Below are positions 50,919-57,357 of a stretch of 64,000 nt of DNA, one piece after another. A program made the translations under genes and the position numbers. The stretch comes from Pseudotabrizicola sp. (lineage in GTDB: Bacteria > Pseudomonadota > Alphaproteobacteria > Rhodobacterales > Rhodobacteraceae): contig NZ_JAUXOV010000070.1 of NCBI RefSeq assembly GCF_030684215.1, positions 124,001 to 188,000 on the forward strand, given 5' to 3'. The notes below the pieces were generated by a model. That model was not told where the DNA came from and ran no database searches. It was given only the letters and a program-made list of their open reading frames with translations. Within the stretch, counting starts at the first letter, position 1. Each line of letters begins with the position of its first letter.

Positions 50919-51097
50919 TCGTGGTCCTTTCAAAGCCCGTCGAGATCAGGTGCAGGGTTTGGGGCGGGCGTGTTCAGATACCAACGCCAGACCCCTGTTT
51001 GCAATCTGTTCAGGATTGCCAATAGCATTCGTTCGGCCAATGTGACCGACAAAAGCGCAGTCAGGATTATTTCTCGTGTATTACTGCGGGAATTTAC

Positions 51098-51121
51098 TGG
51101 TCGGAGCGAGAGGATTCGAAC
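51098..51121 (-). repeat. attL-like partial copy of tRNA-Pro 3' end
   Basis: TGGTCGGAGCGAGAGG plus ATTCGAAC is identical over 24 nt to 57281-57304, the 3' end (CCA tail, acceptor stem, T arm) of the intact tRNA-Pro gene. Beyond it the match decays (3 of 7 mismatched). It is the duplicated/displaced tRNA end produced by integration, not a functional tRNA. Confidence 0.88.
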
Positions 51122-51180
51122 TTCTTACAAATCCATAAATCCCTTATTTTGTTGACGTTTTGTGGAATCTCCTTGTGAAA

Positions 51181-52854
51181 ATGGCCGATTCTACCATACA
51201 AAATACCATACAGTTACCATACACGGACCCTCAGATGACCGCCCGAAAGAGGAAGAACGTCGACCTAATCGACCACGTCACCAAGACCTCAAGCGGCGCA
51301 TACAAGTACGCCCGCCGGGTTCCGAAAGACCTTGTGGAAGTCTTGGGCCGCACAGTCTGGGACTATTCTTTGGGTTCCGACATCAACAAGGCCGTTTCCC
51401 GAGGGCTGGCTTACACCCAAGAGCATGACGAACTGATAGCTAGGCTTTCCACCCCGGAAGCCAGAAACGGGTTCGCCGCCCGGCAGGAGTCAGAGGTGGC
51501 AGCCGTTGCGTTTTCTTTGCCTCTACAGCTAGCGGCGCAAGCCCGCGCGCCTGAGGCAAGCGAAGACGTCAGATTGGCGGCTGACGCCGCCGCATCGCTT
51601 ATCGCCCCCGGCCTGAGAGTCGACGTGTCCGCGTCCGTCTGGCGGCGCACAGAAGAGGCCATGCAGCAAGCCCGCGCCTTGCCCGCCAAGGCCGAACGCG
51701 ACAAGCTAGCCCTGTTCGCGGCTTACGCCTTCGGTGATCGGTCCTATCTGGACGAACAGGCAGTTGATGACCCTTTCGGCAACATGCTTGTGGAGACCCT
51801 GCAACCCAGCCGCCCCTTGGACAAGACCGGCGGCATGTTCTGGGATGCGTACAAGGCAGCGCTGGACGCCAGACTTGCTGAATTGACCCCAGAGACCCGA
51901 GTCGACACGTCGCTGTGCATCAAGGAGTTGATGGACGTTTACGCAGCGACCAAGCGCCCGCAGACCCGCCGCGCCTACATAGACAAGGTGCGCCGCCTCA
52001 CCGATGCACAGGGGAACCACCCGCCCGCGTATTACACCAAAGAACGCCTGCAAGAGCATCGCGACCTGTTGCTGAAAGACGGAGTCAGCCCGGCAACTAT
52101 CGCCAAGCATTTCGAGACGCTCAAGACGCTGTGGCGGTGGGCCGTTCGCGAGAAAAGCGCCCTCGCCGGGCTGACCTTTCCCGACATCGTCATGCCCGAC
52201 ATCACCACGACTGTGGAGGATACACGGTGGCAGGCGTTCGATGACGATCAAATCAAACAGGTTTGGCGCTTGCTGAATGATGCGTGGGGGCCGGAAGCAG
52301 AAAGCGGGCTGTCACAGTCGCGCCGCGCCGCCTTCCTCATGGGCTTCCGGGTTCTGCTGTACACGGGGATGCGACCTGTAGAGTTGTTCCACCTTGGACC
52401 GGACAGCGCGAAGAACGGAGAACTGCACATTAGGTACACCAAGACTGGCACGCCCCGGCGCATTCCCCTTGCTGCGGCCCTTTCGAACCTGCCGGAATTC
52501 CTTGTGAAAGGTGGCTTCGCAGCAGAGCTTGAGGCAGGCAAGACCGCAGTCCGACAAGGAAAGGTCTATGGGCAGGCAACCAAGCCCGACTCGCTAGCGC
52601 GGGCGTACACTACGGCATTTTCAACAGTGATCCGGTCGGGCGGTTTTACTAATGACCGGCACGTACTCTACAGCACCAAGGATACCCTGATTGACCGCTT
52701 GCAGCGCCAAGGCATGACAGATGACGTCATGCGCGGCATCATCGGGCATGTAGGCGGGCAAGGCAAACTGCGGCACTACAAGACGCCCTTTGGGCAATCC
52801 AAGCATGGTATGGCACAGATGCGGGCAGCGCTGGATGCGATAACTTACTGGTGA
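51181..52854 (+). CDS. Tyrosine-type site-specific integrase
   Basis: A tyrosine recombinase that presumably inserts and excises the island at tRNA-Pro. N-terminal DUF6538-like segment (SSGAYKYARRVPKDLVEVLG), a core-binding region (KHFETLKTLWRWAVREKSALAGL) and a catalytic domain with YTGMRPVELFHLGP (first Arg), GIIGHVGGQGKLRHYKT (His and the tyrosine). The canonical HxxR box reads YSTK, with Lys for the second Arg. I use ATG 51181; ATG 51235 (MTARKRKNV) is a likely alternative, as the stretch between is packed with arm-type repeats. Confidence 0.85.
   Translation: MADSTIQNTIQLPYTDPQMTARKRKNVDLIDHVTKTSSGAYKYARRVPKDLVEVLGRTVWDYSLGSDINKAVSRGLAYTQEHDELIARLSTPEARNGFAARQESEVAAVAFSLPLQLAAQARAPEASEDVRLAADAAASLIAPGLRVDVSASVWRRTEEAMQQARALPAKAERDKLALFAAYAFGDRSYLDEQAVDDPFGNMLVETLQPSRPLDKTGGMFWDAYKAALDARLAELTPETRVDTSLCIKELMDVYAATKRPQTRRAYIDKVRRLTDAQGNHPPAYYTKERLQEHRDLLLKDGVSPATIAKHFETLKTLWRWAVREKSALAGLTFPDIVMPDITTTVEDTRWQAFDDDQIKQVWRLLNDAWGPEAESGLSQSRRAAFLMGFRVLLYTGMRPVELFHLGPDSAKNGELHIRYTKTGTPRRIPLAAALSNLPEFLVKGGFAAELEAGKTAVRQGKVYGQATKPDSLARAYTTAFSTVIRSGGFTNDRHVLYSTKDTLIDRLQRQGMTDDVMRGIIGHVGGQGKLRHYKTPFGQSKHGMAQMRAALDAITYW
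51192..51223 (+). repeat. Three TACCATACA repeats (arm-type sites, left end)
   Basis: TACCATACA at 51192-51200, 51204-51212 and 51215-51223, spaced 11-12 bp (one helical turn). Two further copies are at the right end (57201-57209 exact; 57224-57231 ACCATACA). The arrangement near both att sites is that of integrase arm-binding sites. It lies at, or just before, the start of the integrase coding region. Confidence 0.65.
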
Positions 52855-53199
52855 GACCCGCTGACGCGGAAAAGCGTCAAGCCTGAATATCGACAACGCC
52901 ACCAAGCATGGCGGCTGACACTGCGCGCGACAGAGAGACGTATTTGCTGCGTAGCTAGACGCTGCCCGACGCGTCCTCATGCGGGAAATATTCCCTATCT
53001 TCGCCGCCTTCCTGAATGGTGTCCCGGCAAAGTCAGCTTGAAGCTGAACTTGGCCGGAACCCTTCCCCCAAGGTCGGCCCAAAGTTAGCTTGAAGACGAA
53101 CTAAAGGCTTGATTTTGAACAATAAAGATTCGACTCGCCTGCCTTTTTTAGGTTAGAAGACATTTACAGGACAGGCAAATCGGACAGAAAGGGCAGATC
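52855..53199. other. Intergenic region with inverted/direct repeats before the resolvase
   Basis: 345 nt without a supported gene. It holds two similar segments: AAAGTCAGCTTGAAGCTGAACT (53029-53050; written here as AAAGTCAGCTTG and AAGCTGAACT) and AAAGTTAGCTTGAAGACGAACT at 53081-53102 in the same direction. The first lies inside an imperfect inverted repeat from CCGGC (53024) to GGCCGG (53057), with the perfect core CAGCTT-G-AAGCTG. These may be binding sites of the serine recombinase encoded from 53200 (a res/sub-site cluster) or its operator. Confidence 0.5.
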
Positions 53200-53775
53200 A
53201 TGGGCGAGTTGATCGGTTACGCGCGAGTATCCAGTCGGGGACAGTCGCTCGACGTCCAAGAAGTTGCCCTTCGCAACGCGGGCGTCAGCCCGGAACACCT
53301 TTACACTGAGAAGGTAAGCGGGCGCAGCCGCGACGGCAGGGCCGCGCTGGCTGAGCTTCTTGGGCGCGGTACTCGCAAGGGCGACACTGTCGTATGTACG
53401 CGCCTTGATCGCCTAGCACGTTCAACGCGCGACCTTCTGGAAATAGCAAAGACCCTTGAGGACAAGGGCGTGCACTTGCGCGTTCTTGAACAGCCCATTG
53501 ATACCAGCACCGCCGCAGGCAAGCTGTTCTTCACCATTCTTGGGGCGTTCGGAGAATTTGAAGCCACGATCAGGACAGAGCGCCAAAGAGAAGGCATCGA
53601 CGCTGCGCTTGCAAAGGGCGAAGCCAGCCCCTTTAAGGGTCGACCGGCGACCATAGACGCGGGTAAGGTTCGCGCATTGCGGCAGCAAGGAAAAACGCCA
53701 ACATATATTGCTAAATCGCTTGGTGTGGCGCGGTCATCTGTCTACCGGTATCTGCTTGAGCAAGGCTCAATTTAG
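53200..53775 (+). CDS. Serine recombinase (resolvase/invertase family)
   Basis: A 191-residue protein with N-terminal catalytic domain: LIGYARVSSRGQSLDVQ (nucleophile Ser about 11), VVCTRLDRLARSTRDLLEIA, then GKLFFTILGAFGEFEATIRTERQREGIDAAL, the E-helix, and a C-terminal HTH (TPTYIAKSLGVARSSVYRYLLEQG). All catalytic Arg are present. AAAGGGCAG precedes the ATG. It could resolve multimers or invert DNA; the repeats upstream are candidate sites. It is an unusual second recombinase on so small an island. Confidence 0.92.
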   Translation: MGELIGYARVSSRGQSLDVQEVALRNAGVSPEHLYTEKVSGRSRDGRAALAELLGRGTRKGDTVVCTRLDRLARSTRDLLEIAKTLEDKGVHLRVLEQPIDTSTAAGKLFFTILGAFGEFEATIRTERQREGIDAALAKGEASPFKGRPATIDAGKVRALRQQGKTPTYIAKSLGVARSSVYRYLLEQGSI

Positions 53776-53865
53776 GGCCTGTAATCCATTCGGTCGTCAC
53801 CGACTCTACAAACGCCTATCGGATGACGCTCGCCATCCGGACAAGTGACATGCTGAAATTTTTGA

Positions 53866-53900
53866 CAGGGTCCCAAGAGGGTATATCACCCTGCCTTTTT
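53866..53900 (+). terminator. Possible terminator after the serine recombinase
   Basis: CAGGGT (53866-53871) pairs with ACCCTG (53888-53893), followed by CCTTTTT. It lies 90 nt after the recombinase stop and before the convergent methyltransferase end. The stem is short, so this is weak evidence. Confidence 0.4.
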
Positions 53901-53983
53901 CCCCGACACAGTAGCTGCGGGCACATATGCAACTAGTCTATTTGGTTGCCATCGTGGCCAATAACTCGCAGAACCGTCGTGCC

Positions 53984-55087
53984 TTATTCAGCAGCTACGG
54001 GCACTTGCAAAGCCGCGTCACCGGATAGTGCGCCCGCGACAACTCGTGCAACCGCCTCTGCGAGCAATGGCGGCACTGCATTTCCCAATTGGCGATACTG
54101 AGCGCTTCTAGAACCAGCCAGCCTATAGTTGGCCGGAAATGTCTGAACGGCGATGCACTCATCTATCGTCAACCTACGAAGACGCTTGGGGGCTTCCCCA
54201 ACTCTTGGCTCGCCGCCAGCCATCAGGTGGCGGTGGTAGGTTTCAATATAGCTCTCTTCGCCATCAAAAATCTCTGCTTCATCAACGATAGGCGTTTTGT
54301 TTCCACCCATAGAAGCAGGAAGGGTCGTCGCCCATTTTGATGGAGGCAAGGGTCGACCTGCCCCGTTGAACATCATCCCTGCATATGGTGACTTTCGCAT
54401 AATGGGCGCACGGGCGAATGTGATCTTAGCTGCGCAGGTTCTTGAATTTCCAGACGTGCCAGCACGCCCTAAGTCGCGAATGATATCAGCAACTGTTCTT
54501 GGTTTTCTGACTTGGGCTAGAAGGGCTGCTTCGATCATGTTCTGAAGCTCTGTATCAGACCCAGCAAAAACCTCCTTATGCAGCCCAATCAAGAACATGC
54601 GTTCCCGGATTTGAGGGACGCCATAATCGGATGCGTTCAGTATGATTAGGGCAATGCGATAGGCCTTGCGACCGCGTGCAAAAAGCGCATTCCTTACGCT
54701 TTGCCACTTGGTAAGAACAGCAAGAGCCTTCACATTCTCACAAACGAAGGCCTTGGGTTGCAGCAAATCCACCACGTCAAAGAATGAGTGGATTAGTTGA
54801 CTCCTCTCATCGTCAGGGTCCATTTTCCCGGCAACGGAAAATCCCTGACAAGGTGGACCACCAAAGACCAAGTCAACCGCCCGTCCAGCCACCAGTTCAA
54901 GCGGGTTGATACTGAGCAAGCTTGCTTGGGCGATGCTATCACCATGATTTAGTCGGTATGTCGCGCAAGCGTCAGGGTCAATGTCGTTGGCGAACAGGAT
55001 GTTGAAGCCAGCATTGGCAAAGCCAATGTCCATCCCTCCGGCACCGGAGAAGAGCGAGACAGCCGAGAAGGCGTTGCGCCGGTCCAT
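53984..55087 (-). CDS. DNA (cytosine-5-)-methyltransferase
   Basis: Modification enzyme of the R-M system, 367 residues from ATG 55087 (GGGAGGG ribosome site; ATG 55111 is weaker). Motifs: I VSLFSGAGGMDIGFANAGF, IV VFGGPPCQGFS (catalytic Cys80), VI FVCENVKAL, VIII VPQIRERMFLIG, IX RRLTIDECIAVQTFP, X QYRQLGNAVPPLLAEAV. The region between VIII and IX (about 200-290), with SPYAGMMFNGAGRPLPPSKWATTLPASMGGNK, is the target-recognition domain; I cannot name its target. The gene is divergent from the controller gene with the operator between. Confidence 0.93.
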   Translation of the reverse strand: MDRRNAFSAVSLFSGAGGMDIGFANAGFNILFANDIDPDACATYRLNHGDSIAQASLLSINPLELVAGRAVDLVFGGPPCQGFSVAGKMDPDDERSQLIHSFFDVVDLLQPKAFVCENVKALAVLTKWQSVRNALFARGRKAYRIALIILNASDYGVPQIRERMFLIGLHKEVFAGSDTELQNMIEAALLAQVRKPRTVADIIRDLGRAGTSGNSRTCAAKITFARAPIMRKSPYAGMMFNGAGRPLPPSKWATTLPASMGGNKTPIVDEAEIFDGEESYIETYHRHLMAGGEPRVGEAPKRLRRLTIDECIAVQTFPANYRLAGSRSAQYRQLGNAVPPLLAEAVARVVAGALSGDAALQVPVAAE

Positions 55088-55167
55088 CTTGCTGTGCCCT
55101 CCCGCTGGCATTCTTACATCATTTAGTTACCGATACCCTACCGTCCACAAGAAATCTAGCCCAATGT

Positions 55168-55193
55168 GACTTATAGTCCGTGGACGCATAATC
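55168..55193. promoter_or_regulatory. C-protein operator (two C-box half-operators)
   Basis: GACTTATAGTC (55168-55178), a perfect GACT-TAT-AGTC palindrome, then CGTG and the imperfect GACGCATAATC (55183-55193). The left part, ATGTGACTTATAGTCCGTG (55164-55182), is as I remember it the same as the start of the C.Esp1396I operator. It lies between the divergent methyltransferase and C-gene, 25 nt before the C ATG. Expected action: dimer binding at the strong half activates C-R transcription; filling of the second half represses it. Confidence 0.85.
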
Positions 55194-55217
55194 TACATAG
55201 ACGCTACCGCTAGGTGC

Positions 55218-55451
55218 ATGGAAACATTGGATTCAGCCCTTGTTCAGGCCTTCGCGAGCAACCTCAAACGGCTGCGGACCAAGGCGCGGCTGACGCAGGA
55301 AGAGTTGGCATTACGTGCAGGACTTGACCGCACTTACATCAGCGGTTGCGAACGTGGCGTCCGCAACCCGTCCTTGCTGTCCGTCGAGAAGATTGCAGAA
55401 GCTCTGAACGCGACCGCCACTGATCTGCTGGGAGGCGGTAAGGATGTTTGA
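55218..55451 (+). CDS. R-M controller (C) protein, XRE-family HTH
   Basis: 77 residues, the usual C-protein size. HTH: NLKRLRTKARLTQEELALRAGLDRTYISGCERGVRNPSLLSVEKIAEAL; the recognition helix LDRTYISGxERxxRN is the same as in C.Esp1396I/C.PvuII-type controllers. It would delay restriction until DNA is methylated by activating the C-R operon. AGG is close to the ATG and no good ribosome site is visible, which fits a leaderless mRNA as known for this family. Its end overlaps the next gene by 8 nt. Confidence 0.9.
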   Translation: METLDSALVQAFASNLKRLRTKARLTQEELALRAGLDRTYISGCERGVRNPSLLSVEKIAEALNATATDLLGGGKDV

Positions 55452-57117
55452 ACTCCGAGCGGCAGTGCGCGGAATTCTGTTGCCCGTGGCATCAGCAAGA
55501 GAAGCGGAGTTCTTGGCGGAGGTTACCCGGCTACTGGAAATTGCCGGAGTCACGGACGACAAGGCTAGCTGGATTTCTCTGCAACTGCGACGCTGGCAAC
55601 GTGACGGCGCACCGACGCCCGCATTCCGCGCATTTGTCCGTGATCTTCTTTTTCTTGCAGACCGAGACCCAAAGACATTCATTTTTGATAGCCTTGAAGG
55701 TCCGAATGGAGCTGCATATCAGAACGCTTCCCGGCTTGCGTCAGCGAATTTCTTTGACCTTCATGCAGCGCTTGTATCTGCCCACTTGCTTGACCACGAC
55801 TCAGCAAGACAAATCTTGTCGCATTCTGGGATGATAGCGCGGCTTGCTGTTGAAGAGAAAATGACGGCTTCTGAAATAAGCCGATTGATTGCAGTCAGAG
55901 ACAACCGCTTTTCTCTCAATTGGCGTGCTGTTCAAGCCATACTCACAAAATTCGGGTGTGCACCGACCCTATCACTCCCAGCGTCAAATGAAGTATTTGA
56001 GGATGATATGTCCGCAGAGCCAGCGCTATTTGGCGATTTGGACATAGAAGGCGGAATCGAGCGTGTTGCAGAGGTAGCCAAAAGTCTTGGGTGTGCTGGA
56101 GACTTTTCTGCTTGGCTGTCGGACCTCTTCATAAATGATCTTCACCATCCTTATCTGCTTCTGCTGCACTACCAGCTCCTGATTCAGGCTCGCTTCGACC
56201 ATGCTGTAACCTACGCATATGAATTCAAGCCGCGCGGACAGATTGCGGATTGGCTGACAGAGAAGTACATCTCATCGGGCATTCCCGTGGCCAAGAACGC
56301 TTTCTTGAACAATGCCAAGGCTACGCTTCGCTTCGATCAGGTGTGGGTGACAGGTCGCACTGATAGCCCTCGTTCTGCGACCGCACTGGCAAACATTCTG
56401 GAGACGATTGAGAATCTTGGCTCACTGGCGAAAGACGAACTTGCTGCGCAGATTCGTGGACTACTGCACCGCTACATCCGCGTGGAGTCAGAGAAAAACA
56501 ACGGCGATATTCCTCATAGGATTCCCGTTTTGAATGTCGCTCAAGCGACTACTTTGCTGAACGCTACTGGTAACGGCAACACCGGCACAAACGGAATTCT
56601 GGAACAGCGACTATTGGACTGCTACGGTCTGATGCACCACACGGTGGCAAACGGTTGGACTCCGAAGGGGTTACGGGACTCAGTTTTTGCCGCGAATACC
56701 TTCCGCAAGAAGTTTGGGGACGTCGAGTTCGAGCGCCCCGTTAGACCCAACCCTGAAGTGGTTGCCTATGAATCGCATGGTGGACGTCTTACTCTTCCCT
56801 ATGTTCTGGATCACTTGGACTCGTTTGCCTCTGTTCTGGCCCTGCGAGAAGAGGAGCTAACCAGTATCGCGCCACTTGCAGACTGGCGCTTTGAGGTTGT
56901 GTTCGTTGCACACGTTTTTGATGCAGCCTTGCCGCCCGTTCGCGTTGTCAGGGGCGTCAATGTCGCGGTCCGATACATAACCTTTGCAGCGGCTGCGCTT
57001 GAACTGGCAGCCGCAAATGCGACGGCATCTGTCAACTCTCACATAGTGGACGCGCTTAACAATGGCTTCATTCACCCTCAGGTAAGGCAGCGCGCTTTGG
57101 GGATGATCGCGCCCTAG
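55444..57117 (+). CDS. Candidate type II restriction endonuclease of unknown family
   Basis: 557 residues, start ATG 55444 with GGGAGG 8 nt upstream, overlapping the C gene by 8 nt. Position in an M<-|->C-R locus makes it the expected restriction enzyme. No signal peptide, membrane segment or recognisable HNH, GIY-YIG, PLD or PD-(D/E)XK motif is clear to me; the N-terminal 200 residues look helical, followed by a more beta-rich region. Conserved-looking blocks: FEFKP-like YEFKPRGQIADWLTEKY (about 259-275), HGGRLTLPYVLDHLD (about 445-459) and WRFEVVFVAHVFD (about 481-493). Function as nuclease is inferred from context. Confidence 0.55.
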   Translation: MFELRAAVRGILLPVASAREAEFLAEVTRLLEIAGVTDDKASWISLQLRRWQRDGAPTPAFRAFVRDLLFLADRDPKTFIFDSLEGPNGAAYQNASRLASANFFDLHAALVSAHLLDHDSARQILSHSGMIARLAVEEKMTASEISRLIAVRDNRFSLNWRAVQAILTKFGCAPTLSLPASNEVFEDDMSAEPALFGDLDIEGGIERVAEVAKSLGCAGDFSAWLSDLFINDLHHPYLLLLHYQLLIQARFDHAVTYAYEFKPRGQIADWLTEKYISSGIPVAKNAFLNNAKATLRFDQVWVTGRTDSPRSATALANILETIENLGSLAKDELAAQIRGLLHRYIRVESEKNNGDIPHRIPVLNVAQATTLLNATGNGNTGTNGILEQRLLDCYGLMHHTVANGWTPKGLRDSVFAANTFRKKFGDVEFERPVRPNPEVVAYESHGGRLTLPYVLDHLDSFASVLALREEELTSIAPLADWRFEVVFVAHVFDAALPPVRVVRGVNVAVRYITFAAAALELAAANATASVNSHIVDALNNGFIHPQVRQRALGMIAP

Positions 57118-57200
57118 TTGGCCCCAAGAATCAGCTAGTTCCTGGCAGTTCCAAAACCCGGATAAACGGTAGGTCAGACAAGCTGAAGCCAACTTTCCTC

Positions 57201-57231
57201 TACCATACAAAAACGGCGCTGGCACCATACA
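57201..57231 (+). repeat. TACCATACA arm-type sites, right end
   Basis: TACCATACA at 57201-57209 (within CTACCATACAAAA, also seen at 51191) and ACCATACA at 57224-57231, 50-80 nt inside the right att repeat. These match the three copies beside the left end, as expected of integrase arm sites. The 57118-57280 gap holds nothing else I can support. Confidence 0.55.
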
Positions 57232-57280
57232 TGCGGCCGCGAAAATCTTCTTAAGTATTTGAAATTATTCGGGAAAAAAT

Positions 57281-57357
57281 TGGTCGGAGCGAGAGGATTC
57301 GAACCTCCGACCCCCTGCTCCCGAAGCAGGTGCGCTACCAGACTGCGCTACGCTCCG
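57281..57357 (-). tRNA. tRNA-Pro(CGG)
   Basis: 77 nt on the minus strand with encoded CCA. Acceptor stem CGGAGCG/CGCTCCG, D arm GCGCAGTCTGGTAGCGC, anticodon arm CCTGC-TTCGGGA-GCAGG with anticodon CGG (reads CCG, proline), T arm with GGTTCGAATCC. Its 3' 24 nt are duplicated at 51098-51121, so this tRNA gene is the integration site of the island and is kept intact. It is the right boundary (attR). Confidence 0.95.

Follow-up and report, generated by a model that had tools for sequence, protein, structure and literature searches.

SacI recognizes the sequence GAGCTC, and EcoT38I, a type II enzyme of the SacI family represented in the Protein Data Bank (PDB) by entries 7edb and 7e8r, recognizes GRGCYC. 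A profile of the SacI family (PF09566) that was built without EcoT38I finds this enzyme at 1e-58, covering 347 of its 351 residues. Another group of described systems that bears on the locus analyzed here comprises the Esp1396I-type systems, in which a C protein regulates restriction and modification genes. In the portion of the literature cited here, the OL oligonucleotide of Esp1396I begins with the 15 letters ATGTGACTTATAGTC, which are common to it and to the operator described below (PMC3758141).

Here, we describe a computational analysis of a 64,000-nucleotide stretch of DNA from Pseudotabrizicola sp. (hereafter the window), in which an initial annotation had proposed that a large gene, R, encodes the nuclease of a C-controlled type II system. 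We conclude that a 6.2-kb island in the window very probably carries all the parts of a C-regulated type II restriction-modification system, and that R is very probably its endonuclease, a remote and enlarged relative of SacI and EcoT38I.

The mobile island and its M-C-R locus

The gene order is apparent from the sequence itself, as are the methyltransferase M, the controller protein C, the C operator and the conservation described below. R, the predicted restriction endonuclease (55444-57117, forward strand, stop codon included), encodes 557 amino acids from an ATG start and was assigned from its ORF call and its place after C; the start agrees with those of R homologues on sequence comparison. 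C (55218-55451, forward strand), a 77-amino-acid protein called as an ORF and identified from library and PDB matches, overlaps R by 8 nt (55444-55451). M (53984-55111, reverse strand) encodes a DNA (cytosine-5) methyltransferase of 375 amino acids that matches PF00145 at 3.5e-61 and dcm (TIGR00675), and a DNA methyltransferase gene is thus present at the locus. M is divergent from C and R, with the C operator lying in between. The start of M is probably at 55087 and not at 55111, since homologous M proteins begin, as read by eye, at the methionine of an MxDRRNAF sequence. Both the 8-nt overlap and the divergent methyltransferase had been described in the initial annotation, and the ORF coordinates agree with it on each.

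The C protein matches HTH_3 in Pfam (1.1e-14) and Control_protein in PADLOC (1e-18), and its PDB matches include C.BclI (4.1e-12) and C.AhdI (9.7e-12), two C proteins of solved structure, as well as the chains of entry 3clc (1e-9), which we take to be C.Esp1396I. The C operator (55165-55193, forward strand) consists of an exact C-box, GACTTATAGTC, at 55168-55178 and a second, weaker box at 55183-55193 that contains 2 mismatches and lies 15 nt after the first. The longer sequence TGTGACTTATAGTCCGT is present at 55165-55181 with 0 mismatches and is the sole match in the window at up to 2 mismatches, against an expectation of 0.02; the operator that had been placed between M and C is therefore confirmed and is of the Esp1396I type. 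Thus, the window C resembles C.Esp1396I-class chains and the window operator shares ATGTGACTTATAGTC with the OL oligonucleotide, whereas the window nuclease, with no PDB or library match, is unrelated to Esp1396I-type systems as far as tested.

These genes are part of a 6.2-kb island (51087-57307) at tRNA-Pro(CGG) that contains an integrase, a serine recombinase and M-C-R. The island is bounded by two 38-nt direct repeats, 87% identical, of which the left, att-like one (51087-51124, forward strand) is a copy of the 3' end of tRNA-Pro and the right one (57270-57307, forward strand) overlaps the 3' end of the tRNA-Pro(CGG) gene (57281-57357, reverse strand). Beside the left repeat lies the probable tyrosine integrase of the island (51160-52854, forward strand), which matches DUF6538 at 1e-7 and Phage_integrase at only 0.0049; the serine recombinase (53200-53775, forward strand), of the resolvase/invertase type, is island cargo (PF00239, 1.3e-39). 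G+C content is 55.3% inside the island versus 61.8% outside. Ten congeners were compared, and the one informative genome, G046, has an empty site with the two flanks 184 bases apart, versus 6348 in the window; in the others the flanks were on different contigs or the upstream flank was not found.

Homologues of R and their gene neighbourhoods

None of Pfam, NCBIfam, PADLOC, PHROGs and the PDB sequences yielded a significant match to R, and the earlier view that it belongs to an unrecognised family is supported by the absence of a name in all five. The best library values were 0.031 (DUF5946, Pfam), 0.099 (AlsR, NCBIfam) and 0.19 (PHROGs), with none in PADLOC up to an E-value of 1 and none in the PDB by phmmer up to 10; the R-family profile gave one chance match to PDB sequences, at an E-value of 1.1. 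RE_SacI (PF09566) is absent among the Pfam matches up to an E-value of 10, and because R falls below the curated cut-off of that family we count it as a remote relative and not as a member.

Relatives of R are rare in the collections searched. An order-level search of 390 genomes found matches in 4, counting that of the window itself, with G287 matched by a 31-residue fragment only, and a phylum-level profile search matched 2 of 398 genomes, again including the window's own. Matches were present on 1 plasmid among 72,556 records and at six loci in genome contigs; no relative was found among 50,697 phage records, nor among the 2 and 600 pattern stretches obtained from viral contigs. Seven non-redundant copies are intact: the window copy, those of Hoeflea (L006), Tropicibacter (L007) and Roseovarius (L008; 69-70% identity), and those of Mameliella (L009), a Rhodobacteraceae MAG (L010) and a Paracoccus plasmid (L005; 33-37% identity). 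L002/L003 and L012/L013 were left out as repeats of L007/L010 and the window. An eighth copy (L011) is broken, missing its N-terminal 56 residues, with no M recognized by eye in its ORF list; it was excluded from the R-family alignments and used for its motif only. At this locus (L011, 1444-7712), the broken R is downstream of two 471-aa ORFs that share the same sequence start and are, judged by eye, probably transposases. A contig-end fragment (L004, 1453-1686) contains the R-family stretch GDSVFATN...KKFGDAEL followed by unrelated sequence.

The neighbourhood of R is conserved. The same type of M, 55-74% identical to the window M, adjoins R in all seven intact loci, window included, and C is ahead of R in five of them (the window and L005 to L008). 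Homologues found mostly without methyltransferase or C genes, which the initial annotation had named as an argument against a nuclease, are thus not what the loci present. The first C-box is exact in four of the five C-bearing loci and has 2 mismatches in the Paracoccus plasmid, and the two-box spacing of the window is identical in L006, L007 and L008.

L009 (2063-4978) and L010 (4749-7659), which lack C, carry M and R in direct divergence and have no C-box operator in between, the search having allowed 2 mismatches; no ORF of at least 70 aa lies between the two genes. L009 is a 5.4-kb contig, and a C gene elsewhere in that genome is possible. Other genes adjoin some of the systems: on the Paracoccus plasmid (L005, 2566-4493), M-C-R is accompanied by genes for a serine recombinase and for a HEPN protein of the Swt1 type, and in the Rhodobacteraceae MAG a P-loop ATPase ORF followed by a UvrD-like helicase ORF (L010, 938-4647) resembles, by eye, a Gabija pair.

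Profile and fold links to SacI and EcoT38I

The kinship of R with SacI and EcoT38I, like its fold and its active-site residues, was derived from profile comparisons and predicted structures. A bridge is provided by the Psychrobacter plasmids pA53P3 and pA15BP2, in which relatives of M, approximately 49% identical to it, stand beside an HTH gene and a gene for a 358-aa protein that is annotated as hypothetical and is a nuclease candidate. The HTH gene is ahead of the 358-aa protein gene and the two overlap by 8 nt, as do C and R in the window; the plasmids differ in that no C-box of the GACTnnnAGTC kind was found upstream. Sequence libraries gave nothing for the Psychrobacter protein. When the R-family HMM was searched against seven neighbour proteins, only the window's own and the two Psychrobacter proteins were found, the latter at 1.9e-7 and 6.1e-7 for 7 sequences.

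Profile-profile alignment with hhalign, whose pairwise E-values carry no database size, joins the window R family to the Psychrobacter R (probability 93.7, E 2e-7) and the Psychrobacter R, over nearly its full length, to the SacI family (93.5, 2.2e-7). The direct comparison of the window R family with the SacI family gave a probability of 23 and an E-value of 8.7e-4, or 36 and 3.8e-4 with one relative added, and with fewer rows the values were 75.6 and 2.4e-5 (R-Psychrobacter), 69.4 and 4.3e-5 (Psychrobacter-SacI) and 20.7 and 1.1e-3 (R-SacI). The scores lie above those of 100 of 100 column shuffles for R-Psychrobacter (46.1 versus a maximum of 26.2), for Psychrobacter-SacI (42.3 versus 19.9) and for the direct R-SacI alignment (35.6 versus 23.1; with the added relative, 38.8 versus 24.5); the catalytic core of R alone scores 22.5 against the SacI family, barely over its shuffle maximum of 21.7 (100 shuffles). 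The direct alignment is collinear over about 257 columns, pairing R columns 177-456 with SacI-family columns 7-272.

According to this alignment, a SacI-like part of R may be delimited as residues 177-557 (55972-57114, forward strand), preceded by an N-terminal extension of 176 residues (55444-55971, forward strand) that is all-helical in the model and has neither a SacI-family counterpart nor one in the Psychrobacter R. A sub-profile of R residues 1-200 matched neither the SacI-family profile (E 0.077) nor that of the Psychrobacter R (E 0.89). A helix-turn-helix around residues 128-170 is possible as a guess, because the HTH_20 match there reaches only an E-value of 0.14.

Relatives of M also occur next to recognized SacI-family genes. 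An M 51% identical to that of the window adjoins an RE_SacI gene (1.2e-70) in L022, from the same bacterial family, and two Evtepia phage records that are nearly identical to each other each have an M 46% identical to that of the window next to a gene of the SacI family, the second record judged from coordinates. SacI-family genes are also found with unrelated methyltransferases, namely an adenine methylase in L028 and M proteins 29% and 33% identical in L029 and L023. M therefore does not fix specificity, and a target deduced from M alone was rejected. Three further loci (L014, L017 and L032) have M relatives without a recognised R. On the Acinetobacter plasmid pAS6-4 (L016, 1905-3045) and on a viral contig (L031, 5001-6086), an R of the Psychrobacter type is broken into overlapping frames with the same type of M adjacent; in L031, which was left out of the Psychrobacter R alignment, M is split too.

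The predicted fold leads to the same family. The full-length model of R (pLDDT 81.2, pTM 0.62) gave nothing useful in a fold search, with FokI first at an E-value of 0.34 and many non-nucleases. An AlphaFold2 model of residues 361-557 (56524-57114, forward strand) reached a pLDDT of 91.2 and a pTM of 0.88, and a Foldseek search with it placed EcoT38I (7edb) first of 350,542 PDB chains (E 3.7e-3, probability 1.00, TMq 0.57) and FokI at ranks 2-4 (E 0.045-0.15). A search of BFVD returned Mrr-type and other weak matches, and no search, whether with the full length, with the C-terminal domain or in BFVD, gave a match at 0.001 or better. The Paracoccus plasmid copy was left out of the fold modelling. 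The initial annotation had called for an AlphaFold comparison with PD-(D/E)XK, HNH, GIY-YIG and PLD nucleases; ranks 1-4 favour the first, and the other three were rejected, with no Pfam or PDB match and with PD-(D/E)XK enzymes as the best folds. The core fold of the PD-(D/E)XK superfamily is thus predicted to be present in the C-terminal domain of R.

These results bear on two other explanations of R. The initial annotation had allowed for a new fold, and the lack of any sequence-library match, or of a fold match at 0.001 or better, is what would be expected of a type II nuclease unrelated to known ones. Fold and profiles are two separate roads, and the same enzyme, EcoT38I, is reached by both, as the best fold match and through the family to which the profiles lead; a nuclease of unrelated fold is therefore extremely unlikely. 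It is also very unlikely, if slightly less so, that R is a non-nuclease accessory of the M-C pair, a regulator or otherwise, with the nuclease encoded elsewhere. Its large all-helical N-terminal part with the faint HTH-like match would suit such a role, but no other nuclease-like gene was seen in the 6.2-kb island, a SacI-linked protein occupies the same place behind C in Psychrobacter, and the predicted fold is EcoT38I-like. The proposal that R is the nuclease of the C-controlled system is, then, very probably correct, given its M and C neighbours and its profile and fold links to SacI and EcoT38I.

The predicted active site and a proposed mode of action

Two residues of the predicted PD-(D/E)XK active site are present in R, the motif II aspartate as D426 (codon 56719-56721, forward strand) and the motif III glutamate as E443, whereas the motif III lysine is missing and is replaced by H445 (E443-S444-H445 codons, 56770-56778, forward strand). 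None of the three residues varies among the 8 copies, the broken one included, down to 34% identity. Alignment by hhalign places D426 on the SacI-family aspartate, E443 on the glutamate and H445 on the lysine; because the alignment of R with the Psychrobacter R ends at residue 432, short of E443, the latter is placed only by the R-SacI alignments and the model. The active-site aspartate and glutamate of EcoT38I likewise align with those of R. In the SacI set the residue two positions after the glutamate is lysine in six of seven rows and arginine in one, and a lysine at +4 is invariant; motif III reads E-V-K-D-K in EcoT38I and E-I-T-V-K in the Psychrobacter R, but E-S-H-G-G in R, with glycine at +4. 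R further differs from EcoT38I in its length, 557 versus 351 residues, and in that the R-family profile does not itself find EcoT38I by sequence. The suspicion of a diverged active site was accordingly well founded.

In the published passages cited here, the lysine of PD-(D/E)XK enzymes is replaced by glutamate, glutamine or asparagine (PMC4081073) or by threonine together with a migrated lysine (PMC1913061), and since such replacements are tolerated, its loss does not exclude R from the superfamily. No precedent for E-x-H was found in the portions of the literature searched, where DEXH referred to helicases, which does not prove that none is in print; the search for SacI-family precedents yielded nothing usable.

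The same substitution could indicate that R, though derived from a SacI-like nuclease, cuts very poorly or not at all, the locus being kept as a methyltransferase and regulator or for some other role of R. Motif III has lost the invariant +4 lysine as well, and broken relatives are known (L011, the Acinetobacter plasmid L016 and L031). Against this, the aspartate, glutamate and histidine do not vary among the eight copies, other restriction enzymes work with glutamate, glutamine or asparagine in place of lysine, according to the passage cited above (PMC4081073), and the Tropicibacter and Roseovarius R genes are under strong purifying selection, with dN/dS far below 1 (dN 0.07, dS 1.6-2.3; other pairs were saturated). 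We therefore regard an R that cuts poorly or not at all as improbable.

If R is an active endonuclease, as we favour, the system may operate as follows. M would methylate a cytosine within the sites of the host, and C would bind its two-box operator such that C and R are turned on late, after M has protected the host DNA. R would bind the site of M, probably a palindromic, G+C-rich sequence resembling those of SacI and EcoT38I, although this target is a guess, and its C-terminal PD-(D/E)XK-like domain would cut unmethylated DNA, with Mg2+ held by D426 and E443. H445 would stand in the position of the lysine of its relatives; its role, like that of the N-terminal 176 residues, is conjectural. 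A bolder proposal, which we consider possible and somewhat short of probable, is that R represents a branch undescribed in the libraries searched, a PD-(D/E)XH cutter in which His445 takes the place of the lysine throughout the family and an acquired helical N-terminal domain of 176 residues reads or gates DNA, an architecture that would be new to the SacI/EcoT38I clan.

With this assignment, a protein that is annotated as hypothetical and is unnamed in the five libraries searched very probably finds its place among the restriction enzymes. Furthermore, the seven intact R homologues, five with C and two without, offer a natural comparison between a regulated and an unregulated form of the same system.
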